IMG/VR virus record: IMGVR_UViG_3300035181_000377 | Span: 1-64,000 of that record | Direction: 5' to 3' (one strand) | Source: a virus | Length of the DNA: 64,000 nt | Shown here: positions 1,943-59,988 of the stretch, one piece after another | Layout: each line of letters begins with the position of its first letter | How positions within the stretch are numbered: the first letter of the stretch is position 1 | Position numbers and translations under genes: made by a program | Notes under the pieces: model-generated | What the model saw: the letters and a program-made list of their open reading frames with translations, nothing else | What the model was told of the DNA's origin: nothing | The model's database searches: none

Positions 1943-2794
1943 TTACTTTTTAATTAAAGTATTTACTAATTCTTTTACTACTTTTAATAAGACATTAACG
2001 TCGTAATAAATAACACCTAGTAGTTCTACCATTTTAGCAACTTCATAAGCACCCATAGAAATATTCAAAGTAGCTGCTGGTGACATGTTTGTAATATCGC
2101 CATTCTTAGTTTGCTTAATAATAATATCTAATAAGTCAGTAGATTTAGCAACGCTATCTCTAACGTTTGTAATTACTGCTTTGTTATGTAACTTACCAAT
2201 ATTAATAGACTCTCTGATGATTGGTTCAATATCACTCATTCGACTAATGACTGATTTTAACTTAACTTTAGATACGCCACTGTCTTTAGTAAATCTACCT
2301 AACTTCTCTAAAATAAATAAACGCTTAGCTTTTACTTTTTTGAAAAAATCTGTATGATCTTTAAGAGATATCTTATCATCTTTATTGGTGATAAACGAAG
2401 AAAGTATTGCATTGTATTCACTTAAGATAGATTCATTTAAAGTATAAACTTCTGTGGTGACGTCAGATAATGTTTTAATATAATCTAACATAGAACCATG
2501 AAAGTTTTCTGGTACAGTTATTAAGATATCTCCAAAGTTAATATAGCTTAAAGAACGGGCTGATAATACAGCTTCTTTAGAATCTTTATCTAAATCATTT
2601 AAATCAACATTCTTATCTTCTACTAATCCAACTATTAAATTACTGTAGTTAATAATGCTTTCTCTAAAGCTAGGAATAACTCTATTAAAAGAAGTTAACA
2701 TGTTAGCTAGTACATCACTTTCTAGAACCACTCTTTCTAAATTAGATTCCATTGATACTCTACTTACAATTCCATCATCAAAGACTAGCTTCAT
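1943..2794 (-). CDS. Hypothetical alpha-helical phage protein
   Basis: The product is 283 residues and not recognised. It is predicted mostly helical, rich in Leu, Ile, Ser, Asp and Lys, with no signal peptide or membrane helix. The start ATG at 2794 is preceded on the minus strand by an AAAGGATTG ribosome site. It stands alone on the minus strand between two plus-strand units, with an early-type promoter for the opposite strand just beyond its start. A virion or assembly role is possible from the many isolated minus-strand structural genes nearby, but nothing in the sequence proves it. Confidence 0.7.
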   Translation of the reverse strand: MKLVFDDGIVSRVSMESNLERVVLESDVLANMLTSFNRVIPSFRESIINYSNLIVGLVEDKNVDLNDLDKDSKEAVLSARSLSYINFGDILITVPENFHGSMLDYIKTLSDVTTEVYTLNESILSEYNAILSSFITNKDDKISLKDHTDFFKKVKAKRLFILEKLGRFTKDSGVSKVKLKSVISRMSDIEPIIRESINIGKLHNKAVITNVRDSVAKSTDLLDIIIKQTKNGDITNMSPAATLNISMGAYEVAKMVELLGVIYYDVNVLLKVVKELVNTLIKK

Positions 2795-2880
2795 TTTTTC
2801 AATCCTTTAATATACAGTAAACGTGATAAGCTCATACAATATTAAAAATTGTTAGAATATTAGTATTTTAAAATATTTGA

Positions 2881-2936
2881 TTGCATTTTTTTTTAGTCAT
2901 ATATAGCTATATTGAACATTGTACAGTATGTGCAAT
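2881..2936 (+). promoter_or_regulatory. Early promoter with 5' leader hairpin
   Basis: A T tract is followed by CATATATAGCTATATTGA at 2898-2915, close to the phiKZ early core TATATTAC. Immediately downstream, ATTGTAC (2918-2924) pairs with GTGCAAT (2930-2936) across a 5-base loop, with one G-U pair. Confidence 0.7.
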
Positions 2937-2963
2937 AATCTTTTATTTTAAGGAGATTTTATT

Positions 2964-3080
2964 ATGCTTATTACGCAAAGTATGTCAGTATCACAAGCAA
3001 GCCTTGTGGTGATTTATTGGGTGGCATTATCATTAGCCATATGTGGTGTTTGTGATTTTATTAAAGAGGTAACAAAATGA
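2964..3080 (+). CDS. 38-residue hydrophobic microprotein
   Basis: This short gene begins at an ATG with a strong AAGGAGATTTT ribosome site and ends in ATGA, so its stop overlaps the start of the next gene. The 38 residues contain a hydrophobic core (LVVIYWVALSLAICGV) that could span a membrane, followed by a short charged tail. It is the first gene behind an early-type promoter. The coupling with the next gene and the good ribosome site support real expression. No family is recognised; small early membrane peptides of phages often modify host envelope functions, but that is inference only. Confidence 0.65.
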   Translation: MLITQSMSVSQASLVVIYWVALSLAICGVCDFIKEVTK

Positions 3081-3292
3081 GTACAGAATTCAAAAAGAAG
3101 CTTGCCGATATGCAGGCTGAGATAGCTGCTAACGCAGCACGTATATCGGCACAGGCTACTATAGACCGATATGAGCTAATGGAGCGTATCAAAGCTGATA
3201 CGAAAGCATTAGTAGAAAAACACACAGCTGCTAATAATGCAGCGTGTGTTAGAATGTGTTCGAAGCTAGAGCACATGAAGCACTCGCTGTAG
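3077..3292 (+). CDS. Small helical early protein
   Basis: The product is 71 residues, translationally coupled to the preceding microprotein by an ATGA overlap. The sequence is almost entirely alpha-helical and Ala, Lys and Glu rich (repeats such as AANAARISAQA), so a coiled coil or DNA-binding helix bundle is plausible. It is the last gene of a two-gene early cassette closed by a strong terminator. Base composition is more GC-rich than neighbouring late genes. The function is unknown. Confidence 0.7.
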   Translation: MSTEFKKKLADMQAEIAANAARISAQATIDRYELMERIKADTKALVEKHTAANNAACVRMCSKLEHMKHSL

Positions 3293-29217: not shown

Positions 29218-29943
29218 ATGGATATTAGCAACTTAACCAGAGATGCTAAATCTGTTTTAAGTGCGTTAAAAGAATTGCCAAATAACAGCGTAGTGACTAC
29301 TAAGGCTTGTAAGATACAAATCCCAAAAAGATTTGCTAGTAGAAACTTAGCTGTGATTGGTATTGATATTTATATACCTGGTATATACGTGTTGATAATG
29401 GAAGATAATAAATATGCAGTATCTACTATTACTTCTCAAATAAAAATTAACCCATTTAAAACATTAGAAACAACTATAGAAGATGTAGATTATTATGAAT
29501 TCTATTTTGAAGCTGGGCAAGTATTATTCGAGAATATTAACTTAGTTAAAAAAGATACATTATTCTACTACATATTTGATGAAATTATTACCAAAGCTAA
29601 TGTTCCGTGGTTTTTAGAATATGAAGATTTAGGTAAGATATTTGACTATGCCGCTTTTTATGCAGGTAGTAATATTGGTGAGAATCCAGAAGTAACTGAA
29701 TTAATTATTTCTTTAACTTCTAGGGATGCAATAAATAAGATGAATTTTTACAGACATACTGTGAAGAATCGTTCTTATTTAAAAACTAATCCACCTGAAT
29801 ATGTAGCGCTGAATAGTGTTATATATTCCGCATCAAGTACATTAAATAAAATAGCAGGGTCATATGTTAGCGATGGTATTGTGTCTGCTTTAGTTGACAC
29901 TACTACCGAAGCAAGCAAGATAGAGAAATTATTAAGAGCATAA
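29218..29943 (+). CDS. Hypothetical protein, last gene of RNA polymerase operon
   Basis: The product is 241 residues with a mixed alpha/beta pattern and no recognised motif. It begins 3 bases after the previous stop (TAAGATATG) and is closed by a 13-bp terminator. The organisation makes beta', beta, and the genes at 27559, 27787 and 29218 one likely transcription unit of about 8.4 kb. Confidence 0.7.
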   Translation: MDISNLTRDAKSVLSALKELPNNSVVTTKACKIQIPKRFASRNLAVIGIDIYIPGIYVLIMEDNKYAVSTITSQIKINPFKTLETTIEDVDYYEFYFEAGQVLFENINLVKKDTLFYYIFDEIITKANVPWFLEYEDLGKIFDYAAFYAGSNIGENPEVTELIISLTSRDAINKMNFYRHTVKNRSYLKTNPPEYVALNSVIYSASSTLNKIAGSYVSDGIVSALVDTTTEASKIEKLLRA

Positions 29944-29949
29944 CTAATT

Positions 29950-29988
29950 AAATACAGATAGCTGTGAGGCTATCTGTATTTAATTTTA
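29950..29988 (+). terminator. Rho-independent terminator of RNA polymerase operon
   Basis: AAATACAGATAGC pairs with GCTATCTGTATTT around TGTGAG, then a T-rich stretch. Confidence 0.85.
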
Positions 29989-29989
29989 T

Positions 29990-30049
29990 TTGAATGCATT
30001 TTTTTTCAGTCATATATAACATAATTGAACGTTATACGCTGTGTATAAC
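29990..30049 (+). promoter_or_regulatory. Early promoter with 5' leader hairpin
   Basis: A T tract then CATATATAACATAATTGA (30011-30028). GTTATAC (30031-30037) pairs with GTATAAC (30043-30049) across GCTGT. The block is nearly identical to that at 30599-30658. Confidence 0.75.
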
Positions 30050-30075
30050 AAAACCTTTTTTTAAGGAGATTTATC

Positions 30076-30489
30076 ATGAATAATAAATACATCGCGTTCG
30101 TGTTATCTAGCGAATCACGGGCAGAGTTACTGGCTGCATATAATCCTGCGTATGGCAGGGTCATAGCACATCATGTCACGCTAGCATTTAATGGCGTGAA
30201 CGAAGGGCTCTTTAAAGAGCTAAGTGATGAATGCACTAGCCATCTAGGGATGCAATGCATGGAAGCTGTTACGGAGTACGATGATGGCGCTGGCGTACAG
30301 TGTGTGAAAGTTATTCCTGCATCGGCAGGGTCATCAGTTCGCCGAGATGGCGGTACTTACCATATCACCCTTTCATTGGGTGAAGGTAGACGGCCAGTAG
30401 AGTCTAACAACATCCTGAAAGAGGGTGGTGTTAAAATAAAGTCGACTCACTTACGCCTATATGGCTCGGTTCAACTTTTAGATAAATAA
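30076..30489 (+). CDS. 2H phosphoesterase-like early protein, candidate anti-defence factor
   Basis: The product is 137 residues. It has the two HxT signatures of the 2H phosphoesterase superfamily: His33-Val-Thr35 in AHHVTLAF and His96-Ile-Thr98 in YHITLSL, each on a predicted strand. This family cuts 2',3'- or 2',5'-cyclic phosphates and includes LigT, RNA-repair enzymes and the phage anti-CBASS protein Acb1. It is the first gene after an early promoter with a strong AAGGAGATTT site, and its GC content is above that of late genes, so it may be an acquired early counter-defence or RNA-processing enzyme. The substrate is not decidable from sequence; RNA repair is the main alternative. Confidence 0.7.
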   Translation: MNNKYIAFVLSSESRAELLAAYNPAYGRVIAHHVTLAFNGVNEGLFKELSDECTSHLGMQCMEAVTEYDDGAGVQCVKVIPASAGSSVRRDGGTYHITLSLGEGRRPVESNNILKEGGVKIKSTHLRLYGSVQLLDK

Positions 30490-30510
30490 GTTGGCGTGGG
30501 TGATATTTGT

Positions 30511-30552
30511 TAGAGAGGATTGGTAATTACCAATCCTCTCTATTTTTTTTAT
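30511..30552 (+). terminator. Rho-independent terminator
   Basis: A 32-base perfect palindrome (30511-30542) beginning TAGAGAGGATTGG is followed by a T run. Confidence 0.9.
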
Positions 30553-30553
30553 A

Positions 30554-30578
30554 TTAATTTGATATAATTATTTTAATA
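30554..30578. repeat. 25-bp inter-cassette repeat, copy 1
   Basis: The element begins TTAATTTGATATAATTATTT and continues TTAATA. Further copies lie at 30985-31009, 31518-31542 and 32043-32067, each just after a terminator. It contains a TATAAT-like hexamer. Confidence 0.8.
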
Positions 30579-30598
30579 GGTATCTATTTTTATTTTAT

Positions 30599-30658
30599 TT
30601 GAATGCATTTTTTTTCAGTCATATATAACATAATTGAACGTTATACGCTGTGTATAAC
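30599..30658 (+). promoter_or_regulatory. Early promoter with 5' leader hairpin
   Basis: CATATATAACATAATTGA at 30620-30637; GTTATAC (30640-30646) pairs with GTATAAC (30652-30658). Nearly the same 75-80 bases occur at 29990. Confidence 0.75.
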
Positions 30659-30683
30659 AAAACCTTTTTTAAGGAGATTCAAA

Positions 30684-30938
30684 ATGGACATTTTATTAGA
30701 AGAGGCCAGTGCTACTTTAGTAGCGCTTGGATTTGTACCAGTCGTTGGGAATCCAGAATTCCTGGATTCACCAGGAAAAGACTGGTTTGGACCAGTTGTA
30801 CAAGTCTACATCTACAAAAACATGTGCGGAACATGTTCAATAGATGTAGATGGTGGCTATAAGGCCACTTGTAATGGTCCAGATATGGAAAATTTTCTGT
30901 ATCATCTTGACAAATATCACCCAGGTTGGCGTGGGTGA
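30684..30938 (+). CDS. Small early protein of unknown function
   Basis: The product is 84 residues from the ATG at 30684, which has AAGGAGATTC at ideal spacing. An in-frame extension upstream only reads through the promoter and leader and is not a real N-terminus. The protein is compact, with Cys (NMCGTCSIDVDGGYKATC), Gly and aromatic residues, and may be a small beta-rich domain. It forms a one-gene early cassette between its own promoter and terminator. No family is recognised; a host-takeover role is inferred from context. Confidence 0.75.
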   Translation: MDILLEEASATLVALGFVPVVGNPEFLDSPGKDWFGPVVQVYIYKNMCGTCSIDVDGGYKATCNGPDMENFLYHLDKYHPGWRG

Positions 30939-30946
30939 TTAAGTTT

Positions 30947-30982
30947 ATAGAGGATGGAATTACCCATCCTCTATTTTTTTTA
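30947..30982 (+). terminator. Rho-independent terminator
   Basis: ATAGAGGATGG pairs with CCATCCTCTAT, then a T run. Confidence 0.9.
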
Positions 30983-30984
30983 TT

Positions 30985-31009
30985 TTAATTTGATATAATT
31001 ATTTTAATA
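30985..31009. repeat. 25-bp inter-cassette repeat, copy 2
   Basis: Same element as at 30554, between a terminator and the next early promoter. Confidence 0.8.
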
Positions 31010-31030
31010 TCTGCGTGTATTTAATTTTAT

Positions 31031-31091
31031 TTGATTCCATTTTTTTTTCAGCCATATATAACATAATTGAATATTGTACATTCCGTACAAT
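31031..31091 (+). promoter_or_regulatory. Early promoter with 5' leader hairpin
   Basis: CATATATAACATAATTGA at 31053-31070; ATTGTAC (31073-31079) pairs with GTACAAT (31085-31091) across ATTCC. Confidence 0.75.
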
Positions 31092-31121
31092 AATTTTTAT
31101 TAATTTTTAAGGAGATTTATA

Positions 31122-31463
31122 ATGTCTACATTCAGTTTTAACTCATACGCGTTGGTTGGGCAGCTTATGGTGATGAGAGAAATGAAGGCACGAAATGTGT
31201 CTGATGAAGAAGGTATGGATTTTGTGCTGCATTCACCTGAAATGCTGTTGCTTTTCATGTCTTCTGACGAAACAGAGGACAAGAAGAATAAAGTATTGAG
31301 TTATTACAAAGCATCTTCACATCCTAATAAAGAGCTTGTCTCTGTTTTAGAGGACGCGTTATTTCTTTCGTCTTCTAGAAAAGAAACAATCCCACTATTT
31401 GATATGCTGAAAGAAGAAGCAGATAAATTCATAAAAATGATAAATTTAGAAAACATGCTTTAA
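31122..31463 (+). CDS. Early protein, paralogue of the next gene
   Basis: The product is 113 residues, helical and soluble. It aligns end to end with the gene at 31654, sharing VGQL, MKAR, VSD and the segment NKELVSVLEDA, so the two arose by tandem duplication of the whole cassette. The start has AAGGAGATTTATA. No known domain is recognised. Two diverged copies under separate early promoters suggest dosage or differing targets in the host. Confidence 0.8.
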   Translation: MSTFSFNSYALVGQLMVMREMKARNVSDEEGMDFVLHSPEMLLLFMSSDETEDKKNKVLSYYKASSHPNKELVSVLEDALFLSSSRKETIPLFDMLKEEADKFIKMINLENML

Positions 31464-31484
31464 AAAGCCACTATAACAAATTTA

Positions 31485-31515
31485 AAATAGGAGCGAATGC
31501 TCCTATTTTTTTTTA
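31485..31515 (+). terminator. Rho-independent terminator
   Basis: AATAGGAGC pairs with GCTCCTATT around GAAT, then a T run. Confidence 0.9.
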
Positions 31516-31517
31516 TT

Positions 31518-31542
31518 TTAATTTGATATAATTATTTTAATA
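31518..31542. repeat. 25-bp inter-cassette repeat, copy 3
   Basis: Same element as at 30554. Confidence 0.8.
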
Positions 31543-31569
31543 TGTATCTGTATGTATATTTTTTATCTT

Positions 31570-31628
31570 TGATTGCATTTTTTTTCAGTCATATATAGCT
31601 ATATTGAACGTTGTACATTCCGTATAAC
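31570..31628 (+). promoter_or_regulatory. Early promoter with 5' leader hairpin
   Basis: CATATATAGCTATATTGA at 31590-31607; GTTGTAC (31610-31616) pairs with GTATAAC (31622-31628) through one G-U pair, which supports an RNA hairpin. Confidence 0.75.
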
Positions 31629-31653
31629 AAAACCTTTTTTAAGGAGATTCAAA

Positions 31654-31995
31654 ATGTTTTCATTCAACTTCAATGCATTCTCGTTTGTTGGTCAGTTATT
31701 GGTAATCAAACACATGAAGGCGCGTTCTGTATCCGATGCGGAGTCCATGGAGTTCGTTGTAAATTCGCCTGAACTAATGTTATTCTTTTTGTCTTCTAAA
31801 GAAGATGTAATGAAGAAGAACAAGATATTGGAACTTTACAAAGCATCTTCACACCATAATAAAGAGCTTGTCTCTGTTTTAGAGGACGCGGCATTCTTTT
31901 CATCCAATAGAAATGAAACAATTCATTTCTATGACATTATGGTTGAAGAAGCGAATAAATTTATTGTTACAGCAGATATAGAAAATCTGCTGTAA
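31654..31995 (+). CDS. Early protein, paralogue of the preceding gene
   Basis: The product is 113 residues from the ATG at 31654 with AAGGAGATTC upstream; a longer in-frame reading crosses the promoter and is rejected. It is the sister of the gene at 31122, with conserved length and blocks (MKARSVSDAESM, KASSHHNKELVSVLEDA) but many substitutions elsewhere. It is predicted helical. It forms its own early cassette with promoter, hairpin leader and terminator. The function is unknown. Confidence 0.8.
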   Translation: MFSFNFNAFSFVGQLLVIKHMKARSVSDAESMEFVVNSPELMLFFLSSKEDVMKKNKILELYKASSHHNKELVSVLEDAAFFSSNRNETIHFYDIMVEEANKFIVTADIENLL

Positions 31996-32007
31996 TGGTG
32001 AATAAAA

Positions 32008-32040
32008 AAAATAGGAGCATTCGCTCCTATTTTTTTTTTA
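32008..32040 (+). terminator. Rho-independent terminator
   Basis: AATAGGAGC pairs with GCTCCTATT (loop ATTC), then a T run. Confidence 0.9.
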
Positions 32041-32042
32041 TT

Positions 32043-32067
32043 TTAATTTGATATAATTATTTTAATA
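32043..32067. repeat. 25-bp inter-cassette repeat, copy 4
   Basis: Same element as at 30554. Here no TATATAAC promoter follows, so the repeat itself may drive or bound the HNH-like gene at 32113. Confidence 0.75.
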
Positions 32068-32112
32068 GGCCGTTGTATTTTATAGTAAAACTATTTTATA
32101 AAGGAAACTTGT

Positions 32113-33955: not shown

Positions 33956-33990
33956 ATACTCATTAGGTGTTAGCCTAATGAGTATTTAAA
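33956..33990 (+). terminator. Terminator after protease and nucleotidyltransferase
   Basis: AATACTCATTAGG pairs with CCTAATGAGTATT around TGTTAG, then AT-rich DNA. Confidence 0.75.
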
Positions 33991-34012
33991 CTAGGTTCTA
34001 ATATATTTTAAT

Positions 34013-34051
34013 AATATATAACTTTAATGAAGCTAGTACGTTAATGTATTA
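34013..34051 (+). promoter_or_regulatory. Early-type promoter with short hairpin
   Basis: AATATATAACTTTAATGA at 34013-34030. TAGTAC (34034-34039) can pair with GTATTA (34046-34051), including one G-U pair. Confidence 0.6.
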
Positions 34052-43881: not shown

Positions 43882-44868
43882 ATGTTTAAAAATGACGCGT
43901 GTAGCAATACTTGTATTCCAACAAGTACTGTAGAATTAAAATTATGGGAAGAAGAGGAAGGTGTTTTAGGATACTTAGATTTTAGTTCTAATCAACGTAT
44001 ATTAAAAACTGAAAAAGGTATCTTTATCATTGGTGGTAGAGTAAATGGTAAGATATCTAATTCAGTAGTATATGCTAAAGATATTGGTGCTAGTAAATAT
44101 GAAAATGCTAAAAAACAATATGACTTACCAGAAGCATTAGAAAACTTTTCAGTAGTAGGTTCTGGTGATTATATATTTGTTATTGGTGGAGCTACTGTAA
44201 GTGGTATCTCTGATAAAATTTATAGAAGTAAAATAGATGAGTTTGAAGTGCTAGGTGAATGGAAAATGGTAGGTACTTTACCTAAACCTTTAGCTAATGC
44301 CTCAATTATTAAAGTTGATACTACCTTACTTATCGTAGGTGGTGATGATGAAGAATCTGTTAGTAATCAAATATACATAACTACTTTATTAGATAATGGT
44401 ACTATTGGTTCTGTAATTTCTTATGCAGAAATGCCTTTAGCTTTAACTAATTGTAAACTAGTTTTAACAAAAAACAAACTTTACATTATGAGTGGTATTA
44501 AAGAAGATGGTTTTGAGAATGAAGATATCTATTCTTCTCTATTTACTAGTAAATTTGGTAGTTTATCTACGTCTTTTAATAAAGAAGGTAAAATACCTTG
44601 TACATTCTTAGGCGCTAACTTAGTTTATGCTGCTAATAATGTTTTTGTTATTGGTGGTATTAAAAATGGTAGAACTAGTGCCTTAATATATCGTGCTGGG
44701 ATTGATACTAGTGGTAACATATGGTCTTGGTATAAAGGCGGTTCTTTACCACGCCCTAACGCTAATAGCGCTGCATTAGTAACGACTAATAAGTTATATC
44801 TATTTGGTGGTTACAACGATAGAGACTTATCAGACACTTTAATATGTAGCTTTGATGGTTGGTTGTAA
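43882..44868 (+). CDS. Kelch-repeat beta-propeller protein
   Basis: The product is 328 residues. At least five Kelch-like units of about 45-50 residues are visible, each with a Gly-Gly pair after hydrophobic residues: IIGGRVNG, VIGGATVSG, IVGGDDEE, VIGGIKNGR and LFGGYNDR. Together they should close a beta propeller, a fold used for protein or carbohydrate binding. It is the last gene of a virion operon, so it probably decorates the tail or head and helps bind the host surface. A terminator follows. The Kelch call is firm; the ligand is unknown. Confidence 0.82.
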   Translation: MFKNDACSNTCIPTSTVELKLWEEEEGVLGYLDFSSNQRILKTEKGIFIIGGRVNGKISNSVVYAKDIGASKYENAKKQYDLPEALENFSVVGSGDYIFVIGGATVSGISDKIYRSKIDEFEVLGEWKMVGTLPKPLANASIIKVDTTLLIVGGDDEESVSNQIYITTLLDNGTIGSVISYAEMPLALTNCKLVLTKNKLYIMSGIKEDGFENEDIYSSLFTSKFGSLSTSFNKEGKIPCTFLGANLVYAANNVFVIGGIKNGRTSALIYRAGIDTSGNIWSWYKGGSLPRPNANSAALVTTNKLYLFGGYNDRDLSDTLICSFDGWL

Positions 44869-44881
44869 ATAGTGATTATAA

Positions 44882-44913
44882 ATAGAGTAGCTATTGCTAC
44901 TCTATTTTTTTTT
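44882..44913 (+). terminator. Rho-independent terminator
   Basis: AATAGAGTAGC pairs with GCTACTCTATT around TATT/ATTG, then a T run that merges with the next promoter's T tract. Confidence 0.9.
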
Positions 44914-44971
44914 GAATGCATTTTTTTTCAGTCATATATAACTTTAATGAGAGTTGTACAATGTGTATAAC
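44913..44971 (+). promoter_or_regulatory. Early promoter with 5' leader hairpin
   Basis: CATATATAACTTTAATGA at 44933-44950; GTTGTAC (44953-44959) pairs with GTATAAC (44965-44971) across AATGT, with one G-U pair. Confidence 0.75.
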
Positions 44972-44996
44972 AAAACCTTTTTTAAGGAGATTTATC

Positions 44997-45260
44997 ATGA
45001 AAGTTTCTAAAACAAAAAACTATGGCGTGGATAATACAGTTGTATTATCCACCCCTTCACAAAAGAAGTACAATGATAAAGTGCGCGCATACGCCGCGCG
45101 AGGAAAGCGCTTCATGGAAACCTGCCGCAAGGGTAACGGCAAGGTCAGTATACGAGTATGGAACGGAGCATATAAATACTTGAAGTGGTTGGAATCTTAT
45201 AAAAAAGGGGTTAGAGGTAATAAGCTCCCTTATAATAAGATGTTACCACCAACACGATGA
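44997..45260 (+). CDS. Small basic early protein
   Basis: The product is 87 residues from the ATG at 44997 with AAGGAGATTTATC; longer readings cross the promoter. It is strongly basic (many Lys and Arg, for example VRAYAARGKRF), suggesting binding to nucleic acid or ribosomes. It is a one-gene early cassette inserted between the Kelch gene and the convergent terminase gene. GC content is higher than in its neighbours. The function is unknown. Confidence 0.75.
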   Translation: MKVSKTKNYGVDNTVVLSTPSQKKYNDKVRAYAARGKRFMETCRKGNGKVSIRVWNGAYKYLKWLESYKKGVRGNKLPYNKMLPPTR

Positions 45261-47512: not shown

Positions 47513-47564
47513 TTTAATTCTCCTTTAATATGTTCATTATTATTAATAGTATTTTAAAATATTT

Positions 47565-47623
47565 GATTTCATTTTATTTCAATCGCATATAACTTTAATG
47601 AAGATTGTATAATCCTATACAAT
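47565..47623 (+). promoter_or_regulatory. Early promoter with 5' leader hairpin
   Basis: GCATATAACTTTAATGA at 47585-47601; ATTGTATA (47604-47611) pairs with TATACAAT (47616-47623) across ATCC, an 8-bp compensated variant. Confidence 0.75.
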
Positions 47624-47650: not shown

Positions 47651-48124
47651 ATGATTAAGATTGATAATGTAGAATATGCGGAATTTAATGATGAGGCTAT
47701 AGCTGCAGCAGCTATAGGTAAAAAAATAGAGTATATTGATTTACTATTAGTAGAAGTATTACCAGAAGCGCCTCTAGCTAAAGACATTCGGTATTTTGGT
47801 TTACCAAAGGTAAAAGTATTACCAAATACTCCTTTAGTTGAAAGAGTACGGTATCAAATTTTACCTATGGTAGAAATATTACCAGAAACACCATTAGTTG
47901 AAAAAATAGAGTATTATAATTTACCAAATGTAAAAGTATTACCAAATACTCCATTAGCTAAGGAAGTAGGGTATTATAATTTACCACTGGTAAAAGTGTT
48001 ACCAAAAACACCCTTAGTTGAAAAGGCATGGTATGTTAGTTTACCGTTAGTAGAATCATTACCATCCACACCTTTAGCTAAAGACATTTGGTATTTTGGT
48101 TTACCATTGTTAAATATTGGTTAG
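47651..48124 (+). CDS. Protein of six tandem 20-residue repeats
   Basis: The product is 157 residues. After a 35-residue head, about six units of exactly 20 residues follow, with consensus LPxVxxLPxTPLxxxxxYxx. Each is encoded by a 60-bp DNA repeat. Pro, Leu and Val recur at fixed positions, so the protein may form a regular solenoid or extended rod. An early promoter and hairpin leader drive it with an AGGAG site. Repeat units differ by point changes, so they diverged under coding constraint. No family is recognised; binding a repetitive partner is one guess. Confidence 0.75.
   Translation: MIKIDNVEYAEFNDEAIAAAAIGKKIEYIDLLLVEVLPEAPLAKDIRYFGLPKVKVLPNTPLVERVRYQILPMVEILPETPLVEKIEYYNLPNVKVLPNTPLAKEVGYYNLPLVKVLPKTPLVEKAWYVSLPLVESLPSTPLAKDIWYFGLPLLNIG
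47756..48115 (+). repeat. Six tandem 60-bp repeats inside a coding region
   Basis: Units beginning TATTACCAGAAGCGCC-type sequence recur every 60 bp with moderate divergence and stay in frame. They encode the 20-residue repeats. Confidence 0.85.
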
Positions 48125-51601: not shown

Positions 51602-52450
51602 ATGAACGATAAAAAATATTATATAAGTTTAGAAGAATTCAATAGTAATTTAGAACAAAGAATAAATAAAGATATAAATGACTTAGAAGTAATAACACCA
51701 GCGATGGACCCAACTCGTAATAACTTTTATATCTATCCTTTAATTACTGATTTATTAATTAATAGAAACGGTGTTATTATTAGAAAGAGCACAGATAGGA
51801 TATTATTAAGTTATCCTAAAGGTAGAGGCTATCTTACTGTAAAGCATCCTGAAGGTGGTAAGTTACGTGATTGTAGAGTTCATAGACTACTTGCTATTAC
51901 TTTCATTGGTAGACCGTCTAGACATGCAAACACACCGTATAATAGATTACATGTCAACCATATTAACGGTAAACATTCAGATAACCGATTAGTTAATTTA
52001 GAGTGGTGTGATTATAAAGAGAATATACAACATGCTTCTGATAATTGTTTATTACATACTGTCGCTATTTTAGCTAAACACCTTATTACAAATACTATAA
52101 TTAAATTTAAGAGTATTAAATCATGCAGCAGCTATTTTAATATTAATGCCAATACTTTTCAAAATATGTTTAGTAGAAATGGTGAGTGTAGAGGGTTTAA
52201 AGATAATTATATATTTAAGCGCGACGATGATAAGGATTGGAGAATTTTTCCTAATGAAGAAATGTATGAGTTAGGTAAAAATAATTACCATGAAGTAATG
52301 TTAGTAGATATAAATACTAATTATAAAATAATATTTGGAACTATTGTAGAAGCAGCTAATTACATAAATATATCTAATAGTGCGTTAGGTGGTTATGTAG
52401 ATGCTGATAAGATAATTCCAGGAACTAATTATAAATGTGTTAGTATTTAA
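51602..52450 (+). CDS. HNH homing endonuclease, I-HmuI-type, intact core
   Basis: The product is 282 residues from the ATG at 51602 (AGGATAAGTAAA upstream); the longer in-frame reading crosses the structured leader. It has VHRLLAITFIG, then the HNH core LHVNHINGKHSDNRLVNLEW with the catalytic His and Asn, then KENIQHA. The C-terminus (IIFGTIVEAANYINISNSAL) is an IENR1-like DNA-binding repeat. It should nick a specific target and drive its own spread. It is the only one of three related HNH genes here with the catalytic His kept. Confidence 0.88.
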   Translation: MNDKKYYISLEEFNSNLEQRINKDINDLEVITPAMDPTRNNFYIYPLITDLLINRNGVIIRKSTDRILLSYPKGRGYLTVKHPEGGKLRDCRVHRLLAITFIGRPSRHANTPYNRLHVNHINGKHSDNRLVNLEWCDYKENIQHASDNCLLHTVAILAKHLITNTIIKFKSIKSCSSYFNINANTFQNMFSRNGECRGFKDNYIFKRDDDKDWRIFPNEEMYELGKNNYHEVMLVDINTNYKIIFGTIVEAANYINISNSALGGYVDADKIIPGTNYKCVSI

Positions 52451-52473
52451 TAGTTGATTCCAAAATTAATTAA

Positions 52474-52515
52474 CCATATATAACTTTAATGAGTCTAGTA
52501 CAATCCTGTAATAGA
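52474..52515 (+). promoter_or_regulatory. Early-type promoter with imperfect hairpin
   Basis: CCATATATAACTTTAATGA at 52474-52492. TCTAGTAC (52494-52501) pairs with GTAATAGA (52508-52515) with one mismatch. Confidence 0.65.
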
Positions 52516-58767: not shown

Positions 58768-59163
58768 ATGAGTGATTTTAATTTAGGCTTTAGATATAAC
58801 TTTAATACTTTAGCACCAGCTATATTAGGTGCTACGTTTACTAATGCAAAGGTACTGGCGCTATTAAACTATGATACTGCAACTATGTTTGGTAATATTG
58901 CTGCCACGGCAGTAGCTGTATATCCTTTGTTGCCTGCTGGTACGCCTAGTGATCCTACGGCATATAAGTATGTAATCATAGAAACAGAAAATAAGAGTAA
59001 AGTAGTATTAGCATTAAACTGGATAGATACAAATAGTATTGTTTCAGTAGAATCAGTCAATGCTAACTTTAAGATTAGTAATATTACTTTGGATGATATA
59101 AATAAAATTACAACTGCTTTAGTAGCTATGGGTTATACTCAGATAACTACTTCAACGATGTAA
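58768..59163 (+). CDS. Hypothetical alpha/beta protein
   Basis: The product is 131 residues with TTAGGAGTAGTAA. It has an Ala/Leu-rich first half (GNIAATAVAVYPLLPAG) and a beta middle (YKYVIIETENKSKVVLAL). It is the last gene before a long non-coding region; no terminator directly follows, so its transcript may continue into the structured RNA. Confidence 0.65.
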   Translation: MSDFNLGFRYNFNTLAPAILGATFTNAKVLALLNYDTATMFGNIAATAVAVYPLLPAGTPSDPTAYKYVIIETENKSKVVLALNWIDTNSIVSVESVNANFKISNITLDDINKITTALVAMGYTQITTSTM

Positions 59164-59206
59164 ATAAAAATTATTATACCTATTATATGTAGAAAATACA
59201 GTTTAA

Positions 59207-59572
59207 GTTCTGTAAGATGTTAGTGCGTTTTGCTCCAAAACATTTTAAGCTCTCCTCATGAGGGCTGACACAGCAATCCACTTATCTTACAGAACACCCT
59301 CACTACTGATAAACAATACTATATTGATACCTTACATGCACTAGCTCGCAACTTAAAATATTAGGTTATAGTAAATGCGTTTATCAGTTCTTTAATTACA
59401 GCAATAGCCATCTTTAAGCGCCCCCTCGATGTAAAGATGATTTTTCATGGTTTAACTCCTTTTCTCCGTGATATGTTGCAATTGTAATTAAAGTTGTTGC
59501 GAGCAGCATGTTATAATTAAAAACATTAGTTTTTAGTATCCACTGAGGTTTTCCTCAGTGGATACTTTTTTT
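59207..59572 (+). ncRNA. Large structured non-coding RNA with pseudoknot
   Basis: The 486-base gap 59164-59649 has no credible gene. P1: 59207-59218 with 59284-59295, 12 bp, enclosing AGTG/CACT and two hairpins, GTTTTG-CTC-CAAAAC and AGCTCTC-CTCAT-GAGGGCT. P2: ACTGATAAAC (59305-59314) with GTTTATCAGT (59379-59388), then TACTATA with TATAGTA. P3: CTTTAATTACA (59390-59400) with TGTAATTAAAG (59483-59493), extended by GCAA/TTGC past a 3-base bulge, enclosing CATCTTTA/TAAAGATG and TCATGG/CCGTGA. Pseudoknot: GCTCGCAAC (59344-59352) in the P2 interior with GTTGCGAGC (59496-59504), 9 bp. A 14-bp terminator ends it. It does not look like tmRNA or RNase P RNA. Confidence 0.82.
59535..59572 (+). terminator. 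Terminator of the structured RNA
   Basis: AGTATCCACTGAGG pairs with CCTCAGTGGATACT around TTTT, then seven T residues. Confidence 0.93.
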
Positions 59573-59591
59573 GTTTCTATTTATAATTAAA

Positions 59592-59609
59592 CATATATAA
59601 CTAATATGA
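59592..59609 (+). promoter_or_regulatory. Early-type promoter
   Basis: ACATATATAACTAATATGAA matches the TATATAAC element; a clear leader hairpin is not seen. It drives the gene at 59650. Confidence 0.6.
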
Positions 59610-59649
59610 AGTTAATGTAATTAATCTTTTTAAAAGGAGTTTTAAAAAA

Positions 59650-59988
59650 ATGGTAATAGTTAAAGCAGAATGTGAACTTACGATGGAATATTGGTTAGTA
59701 TTAAATCCAATGCAAGGTAATACAGAGGATGGTGTAAAGTTTGGACCTTATACTTCTAAAGAAGAAGCTAGAACAGTATATAACTCACAATTATGCGAAC
59801 CATATAAAGATGAAGGTATGGATACTTTTAATGGCGGTACTAAACAATACCATAAGAGTTTTATTAAAGGTGGTCCAATGGAATGGATGAACCGAATAGA
59901 TGAGAATGACTGGACCACGCCTAACCGTTATGGTCACGGACTGCATAAAATAATTGCTGATGTGAAGGTATTGCGAGTTATTGGATAA
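59650..59988 (+). CDS. Hypothetical protein
   Basis: The product is 112 residues behind AAAAGGAGTTTTAAAAAA, with a slightly long spacer to the ATG. It is a compact alpha/beta domain with YWLVLNPMQG, KFGPYTSKEEAR and Trp-rich loops. No family is recognised. It leads a four-gene group ending at 62027. Confidence 0.65.
   Translation: MVIVKAECELTMEYWLVLNPMQGNTEDGVKFGPYTSKEEARTVYNSQLCEPYKDEGMDTFNGGTKQYHKSFIKGGPMEWMNRIDENDWTTPNRYGHGLHKIIADVKVLRVIG

Follow-up and report, generated by a model that had tools for sequence, protein, structure and literature searches.

A predicted large pseudoknotted RNA downstream of gp49 in a phiKZ-like phage and its relatives, with recurrent anti-Shine-Dalgarno loops

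The Cuckoo RNAs, or CcsR sRNAs, of Alphaproteobacteria are small host sRNAs that carry the motif CCUCCUCCC and are thought to act in trans. In nucleus-forming phages, the only non-coding RNAs that we found described are two small UTR-derived ones from phiKZ, one from the 3' UTR of PHIKZ298 (~100 nt) and one from the 5' UTR of p40 (~180 nt), which come from mRNA ends and form two stem-loops (PMC8545117). Larger phage RNAs are represented by ROOL and GOLLD, which are characterised by self-assembly into a multimeric cage and a location near tRNA islands, and many GOLLD RNAs exceed 800 nt (PMC12286853). The literature searched, with most of the subscription literature outside its coverage, held no description of a large RNA at the locus presented here.

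The window, meaning the whole stretch of 64,000 nt that was analysed, is part of a 66.8-kb virus record (IMGVR_UViG_3300035181_000377). PhuZ (phrog_4733, E 3.4e-90) is encoded in it together with an SH3DP protein (PF20287) and a divergent DNA polymerase of family B (gp50, PF20286), and these genes mark the phage as phiKZ-like (Chimalliviridae) and nucleus-forming. ORF tiling of the window left no ORF of at least 40 aa on either strand between 59164 and 59649; a protein-coding gene was considered for this gap and rejected. A sequence-only reading had called it the only long gene-free gap, which is essentially right because most of the other gap of like size (1413-1942) is filled by a 186-aa ORF at 1324-1884. 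The same reading had placed a large non-coding RNA here, next to the phuZ operon; the RNA indeed comes after the gp49 gene, the last of that gene run. The features of the locus are collected in Table 1.

Table 1. Predicted features of the gp49 locus, with positions in the window.
Feature	Position	Strand	Basis
phiKZ gp49 homologue (SH3DP, SH3-fold partner of the phage DNA polymerase)	58768..59163	+	PF20287, E 2.7e-29; aligns with phiKZ-group homologues; constant upstream neighbour of the RNA
TATG late-promoter motif; G 59189 is the predicted transcription start	59186..59189	+	phiKZ late promoters (PMC4666361); TATG enrichment after gp49 in relatives
Predicted non-coding RNA, ~384 nt	59189..59572	+	Fold z -8.7 (59207-59572); no ORF of at least 40 aa; promoter motif and terminator at the ends
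P1 domain: 12-bp helix 59207-59218/59284-59295, inner hairpin 59248-59254/59260-59266	59207..59295	+	Fold; 12-bp P1 also at this place in L012
P2 helix 59305-59314/59379-59388 (10 bp) plus inner stem; crossed by the pseudoknot	59305..59388	+	
Pseudoknot 5' strand GCUCGCAAC	59344..59352	+	Pairs with 59496-59504, 9 bp, -14.8 kcal/mol
P3 domain: 59390-59400/59483-59493 (11 bp), enclosing hairpin 59409-59416/59432-59439 and the CU-loop hairpin	59390..59493	+	
CU-rich hairpin region UUUAACUCCUUUUCUCC (anti-Shine-Dalgarno)	59451..59467	+	Core unpaired in the MFE fold; complementary to three phage leaders
Pseudoknot 3' strand GUUGCGAGC	59496..59504	+	Pairs with 59344-59352
Intrinsic terminator: 14-bp hairpin 59535-59566, then U run	59535..59572	+	Fold
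Repeat resembling an early promoter (59591-59611) and Shine-Dalgarno leader AAAAGGAGUU of the following gene (59632-59641)	59591..59641	+	Repeat families D12, D13; leader complementary to the CU loop

The + strand of 59207-59572 folds with a minimum free energy of -107.3 kcal/mol, against -66.4 +/- 4.7 for shuffled sequences, and none of 100 shuffles was as good. All the helices listed by the sequence-only reading were present where it had put them, including the 9-bp pairing that crosses P2, whose position was exact. Forcing the core helices while keeping the pseudoknot strands free costs 7.7 kcal/mol relative to the nested optimum; as the pseudoknot helix is worth -14.8 kcal/mol, formation of the pseudoknot is plausible on energetic grounds if loop penalties are left aside. 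The fold, the absence of ORFs and the signals at both ends support by computation the claim that a discrete non-coding RNA, pseudoknotted and ending in a terminator of its own, lies here, and the RNA gene is very probably real.

In phiKZ, late promoters carry the motif TATG with its G at +1, a motif that is necessary but not sufficient (PMC4666361). The TATG of the window stands 22 nt past the gp49 stop. Among relatives, 44 of 80 have a TATG no more than 60 nt past gp49, compared with 24 expected from shuffles, and the motif often lies inside a longer string like TATTGTATGTA. These observations suggest a separate, late-transcribed RNA, predicted to span 59189-59572 because the G of TATG would be its start. 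The extent proposed earlier (59207-59572) thus stands at its 3' end, where the strong terminator hairpin and U run were found again, while the 5' end probably lies near 59189 instead. The motif TTTATGCCG, present in relatives (e.g. L018, L019, L039 and FLC9) but not in the window, comes after a strong hairpin at 73 of 82 sites, versus 180 of 400 random positions, which would suit a component of a terminator signal in these phages. The operon downstream of the RNA has its own promoter-like repeat. Such CATATATAACTWTAATGA-like repeats are found in the window at 33985-34051, 47556-47622, 52447-52513 and 59591-59611, and probably serve the virion RNA polymerase as early promoters. Other repeats were also observed. 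Terminator-like hairpins occur in repeated blocks of 130-150 nt between genes (window 29934-32083, 44856-44999 and 2831-2959); these blocks give rise to near-identical spurious N-termini (MHFFSVIYN...) in ORF calls, and genes made of 60-nt repeats (LPLVE.LPETPL-like units) occur in two copies within ~20 kb (window 47700-48119 and L224:7170-8012).

Protein searches of the viral_contigs collection with the window's own PhuZ, polymerase and gp49 gave no close relatives. Relatives were gathered through polymerase alignments, which yielded ~100 distinct loci, six of them from bacterial and MAG assemblies. Contigs of 144-286 kb with this phage polymerase are present in assemblies of Caballeronia arationis (L218) and Paraburkholderia sp. 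(L220) and in two MAGs (L219 and L223), and are probably carried-over phage DNA. A gp49 profile detects gp49 at the same locus in relatives, adjoining the polymerase in most loci; gp50 is normally the next gene and nearly all of these neighbours are co-directional. In the window gp50 is intact (707 aa) but inverted relative to gp49 and 2.4 kb away. In the region 59650-64201 (L224), ORFs of 112, 123, 84 and 438 aa lie between gp49 and the inverted gp50. The RNA is kept with gp49 despite another ORF separating it from the polymerase in the window, L031 and L051.

Of 97 unique loci, 56 have a gap of at least 200 nt after gp49, and strong folding (z -5 to -12) is seen in many of them. The median z of the gaps after gp49 is -4.6, versus -2.7 for other long gaps of the same phages (Mann-Whitney p 0.001); since some of those other gaps are also strongly structured, a z value is not enough to define the RNA. 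Relatives differ widely in the size and layout of the RNA, and its position varies too; the gap after gp49 is short in phiKZ itself and in some relatives. phiKZ, with simple hairpins in its short gap, was rejected as a member, as was 201phi2-1, whose gap carries an annotated ORF on the - strand and a reading frame on the + strand. Gaps just ahead of gp49 fold strongly in L020 and L033, but on reading were unlike the window RNA. A different, shorter structured element, which starts with TATATTGTGACAGAG and has a terminator at its end, follows gp49 in L137, L139 and L044, and was not counted as the same architecture. BLAST of the window RNA against phages gave weak matches only, mostly to the stretch past the terminator; a DNA pattern of P1 gave no match, and no sequence core conserved across clades was found.

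The closest relative, L012, has a polymerase 53% identical to that of the window and an RNA whose sequence is not obviously alignable. Its elements come in the same order, with a 12-bp P1 domain, P2, a pseudoknot strand in the P2 loop, P3, the second pseudoknot strand and a terminator; P3 comes soon after P2, and the second pseudoknot strand soon after P3. When we searched for the P2/PK/P3 topology, the window, L012, L023 and L025 each scored above all 300 of their dinucleotide shuffles, and FLC9, L032, L039, L052, L055, L089 and others above 40 shuffles. Four of 40 random window segments also exceeded all their 20 shuffles, so that the test alone is not decisive and single cases are weak; the evidential weight of the architecture is its recurrence at one locus. 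Nor is the architecture universal, since the search was not significant in relatives such as L057, L021, L051 and L066. Because distant relatives keep a similarly elaborate RNA at the same place with its sequence almost wholly changed, the RNA probably has a real function.

Covariation could be followed in the clade of Burkholderia phage FLC9, where the RNA is alignable and six distinct sequences stand behind the counts. In FLC9 itself, a phage that infects Burkholderia glumae, the RNA would lie at about 2790-3235 on the - strand of its record. With these six sequences, and with shuffles that leave relatedness in, 96.8% of the cells in the FLC9 core are standard pairs (90.1 in shuffles), 20 cells carry changes on both sides (7.6 in shuffles, 0/500) and covariation scores 0.413, against 0.265 in shuffles (0/500). 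Sliding the pairing partner by 1-3 columns lowers pairing to 41-50%. Curating the helices by hand gave 298 paired cells out of 300, with changes on both sides in 16 pairs. When 3' strands are swapped among five sequences of the clade, at most 237 of 250 cells remain paired, compared with 248 before. All sequences keep the pseudoknot helix, GGGGCUGAUUCAUUC/GAAUGGGUCAGCCCC, fully paired while eight of its pairs vary, and G-U pairs maintain the helices amid the variation of the clade. A covariance model of the FLC9 core (R1) matched the FLC9 clade and no further one, and did not match the window RNA at E up to 10. As this model misses the window RNA, we infer the unity of the family from what the two RNAs share, namely a position directly after gp49 and a P2 crossed by a PK helix that encloses P3. 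A covariance check had been proposed for the window RNA; it revealed covariation at the same locus in the FLC9 clade, and the window's own sequence is without an alignable relative.

Comparison with known RNA families returned no match to Rfam covariance models at the gathering threshold and none at E up to 10 on 59100-59680; at E = 10, the window and FLC9 gave chance hits only. ARAGORN found three tRNAs in the window, all distant, the nearest at 49.5 kb, ~10 kb from the RNA. tRNA, tmRNA, RNase P RNA and a group I intron were set aside for want of a covariance-model or ARAGORN match, in agreement with the sequence-only reading, which had seen no tmRNA, RNase P or tRNA signatures. Group I introns (Rfam RF00028) are found elsewhere in relatives, at L016:17808-18104 and L034:16637-16999. 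This reading had found the size and complexity of the RNA reminiscent of ROOL and GOLLD while seeing no shared sequence; a specific kinship with them was not supported, with no Rfam match even at E = 10, a length of ~384 nt versus more than 800, and a DNA-polymerase module instead of a tRNA island; the comparison is an analogy only. Nothing was found in support of the catalytic or capsid-associated role that it had also suggested.

One sequence feature recurs across clades, a hairpin loop rich in C and U (UUUUNCUCCUUUU type). Of the 56 gaps after gp49, 25 contain CTCCTT, compared with 6.6 in shuffles, and anti-Shine-Dalgarno hexamers lie in hairpin loops in 50% of cases, a share that is 12% for hexamers overall and 6% for those made of purines. 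The loop is without a fixed place in the architecture. In the predicted fold of the window RNA, a hairpin loop exposes CUCCUUUU as single strand, with 9-10 nt of perfect complementarity to the leaders of ORFs 54884, 56980 and 59650. Against the phage's own leaders this loop does better than 59 of 60 shuffled loops, with comparable results in L013, L056 and L066; in L016, L025, L031, L039 and L050 the loop is no better than shuffled loops against own leaders. A test of own versus foreign leaders gave a weak signal (141/5000).

These loops are the best functional lead and point to pairing with phage mRNA leaders rather than to the host-directed role that the sequence-only reading had also named. 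Because they recur and complement Shine-Dalgarno leaders, a trans-acting translational regulator is suggested. The RNA would act in trans as a stand-alone, late-transcribed gene, in which the P2/PK/P3 pseudoknot might form a rigid scaffold that keeps the CU-rich hairpin loops open. The loops would pair with A-rich Shine-Dalgarno leaders of phage mRNAs, such as AAAAGGAGUU, and block ribosome binding, so that a set of mRNAs would be translated less from the time when the late polymerase becomes active. We hold this model, predicted from the loops, as a possible and tentative one, together with its evolutionary side, an RNA gene of fast-changing sequence and recurrent architecture kept beside gp49 in many nucleus-forming phages. 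A broader version is more doubtful, in which a family of large pseudoknotted phage RNAs would mimic the 3' end of 16S rRNA, capture phage mRNAs through anti-Shine-Dalgarno loops, and serve as a phage-wide translational timer or mRNA-handling factor.

Other explanations have to be weighed against this model. The RNA might be structural, a scaffold that binds protein or self-assembles for the replication compartment or for the gp49-gp50 polymerase complex, with CU loops serving as protein-binding or kissing sites and not as anti-Shine-Dalgarno sequences. The ornate fold, the pseudoknot, two replication proteins as constant neighbours and the several relatives without loop-leader complementarity would all fit; the wide variation in size and layout is unusual for a tight RNP scaffold, and no common sequence core was found across clades; we consider this role rather unlikely. 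Less probable still is that the RNA belongs to the gp49 mRNA, as its structured 3' UTR or as a product processed from it, serving to stabilise that message and to terminate the operon with no separate function in trans. In favour of this, the RNA always follows gp49 in the same direction, and the known phiKZ non-coding RNAs are UTR-derived (PMC8545117), but the RNA has a late-promoter motif ahead of it, past the gp49 stop, and several hundred nucleotides with a pseudoknot are more than a terminator or stabiliser requires. A simple terminator only was considered and rejected.

Another reading makes the RNA a cis-acting leader or attenuator of gp50. The gene that comes next is gp50 in most relatives, and in the FLC9 clade the loop CUCCUUGU matches the gp50 leader ACAAGGAG. 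However, terminators stand between the RNA and gp50, and since the window RNA persists, folded, where the polymerase has been inverted and moved away, a cis effect is improbable. The breakpoint nearby, with the polymerase inverted and other ORFs inserted, and the place beside the polymerase module might recall a DNA element (a replication origin, a recombination or packaging site) whose inverted repeats are merely RNA-like, and the - strand of the region folds well too. Nevertheless, the transcribed strand folds better (z -8.7 versus -5.2), G-U pairs keep the helices of the FLC9 clade, and the terminator and CU-rich loops are strand-specific, which makes a DNA element very improbable. A CsrA sponge with GGA loops was also rejected; it requires the other strand, which folds less well and is without a U-run terminator. 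Overall, we favour the trans-acting anti-Shine-Dalgarno regulator over the scaffold and over the gp49 3'-UTR element.

If the anti-Shine-Dalgarno model is true, it would show a nucleus-building virus using RNA to choose which of its own messages get translated, and a role in mRNA handling, if true, would fit a virus that separates transcription (in the nucleus) from translation (outside). The large structured RNA gene is syntenic in dozens of relatives and is present in the cultured Burkholderia phage FLC9, and it is therefore directly testable; knock-down by antisense oligomers has already been applied to phiKZ genes (PMC12571901).

To conclude, the predicted RNA can be set beside three described systems. 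Like the phiKZ non-coding RNAs, it belongs to a nucleus-forming phage, but it lies at another locus, is ~384 nt long and pseudoknotted, and has its own promoter motif. It may share with the Cuckoo and CcsR RNAs the presentation of an anti-Shine-Dalgarno sequence in hairpin loops, whereas those RNAs are without a large pseudoknotted scaffold. With GOLLD and ROOL (PMC12286853) it has in common that all are large, ornate, pseudoknotted phage RNAs; it differs from them in its ~384 nt, its place beside gp49 and the DNA polymerase, and the absence of any covariance-model match. With a pseudoknot and, in the FLC9 clade, clear covariation, the predicted RNA extends the large phage RNAs beyond the ROOL/GOLLD setting.
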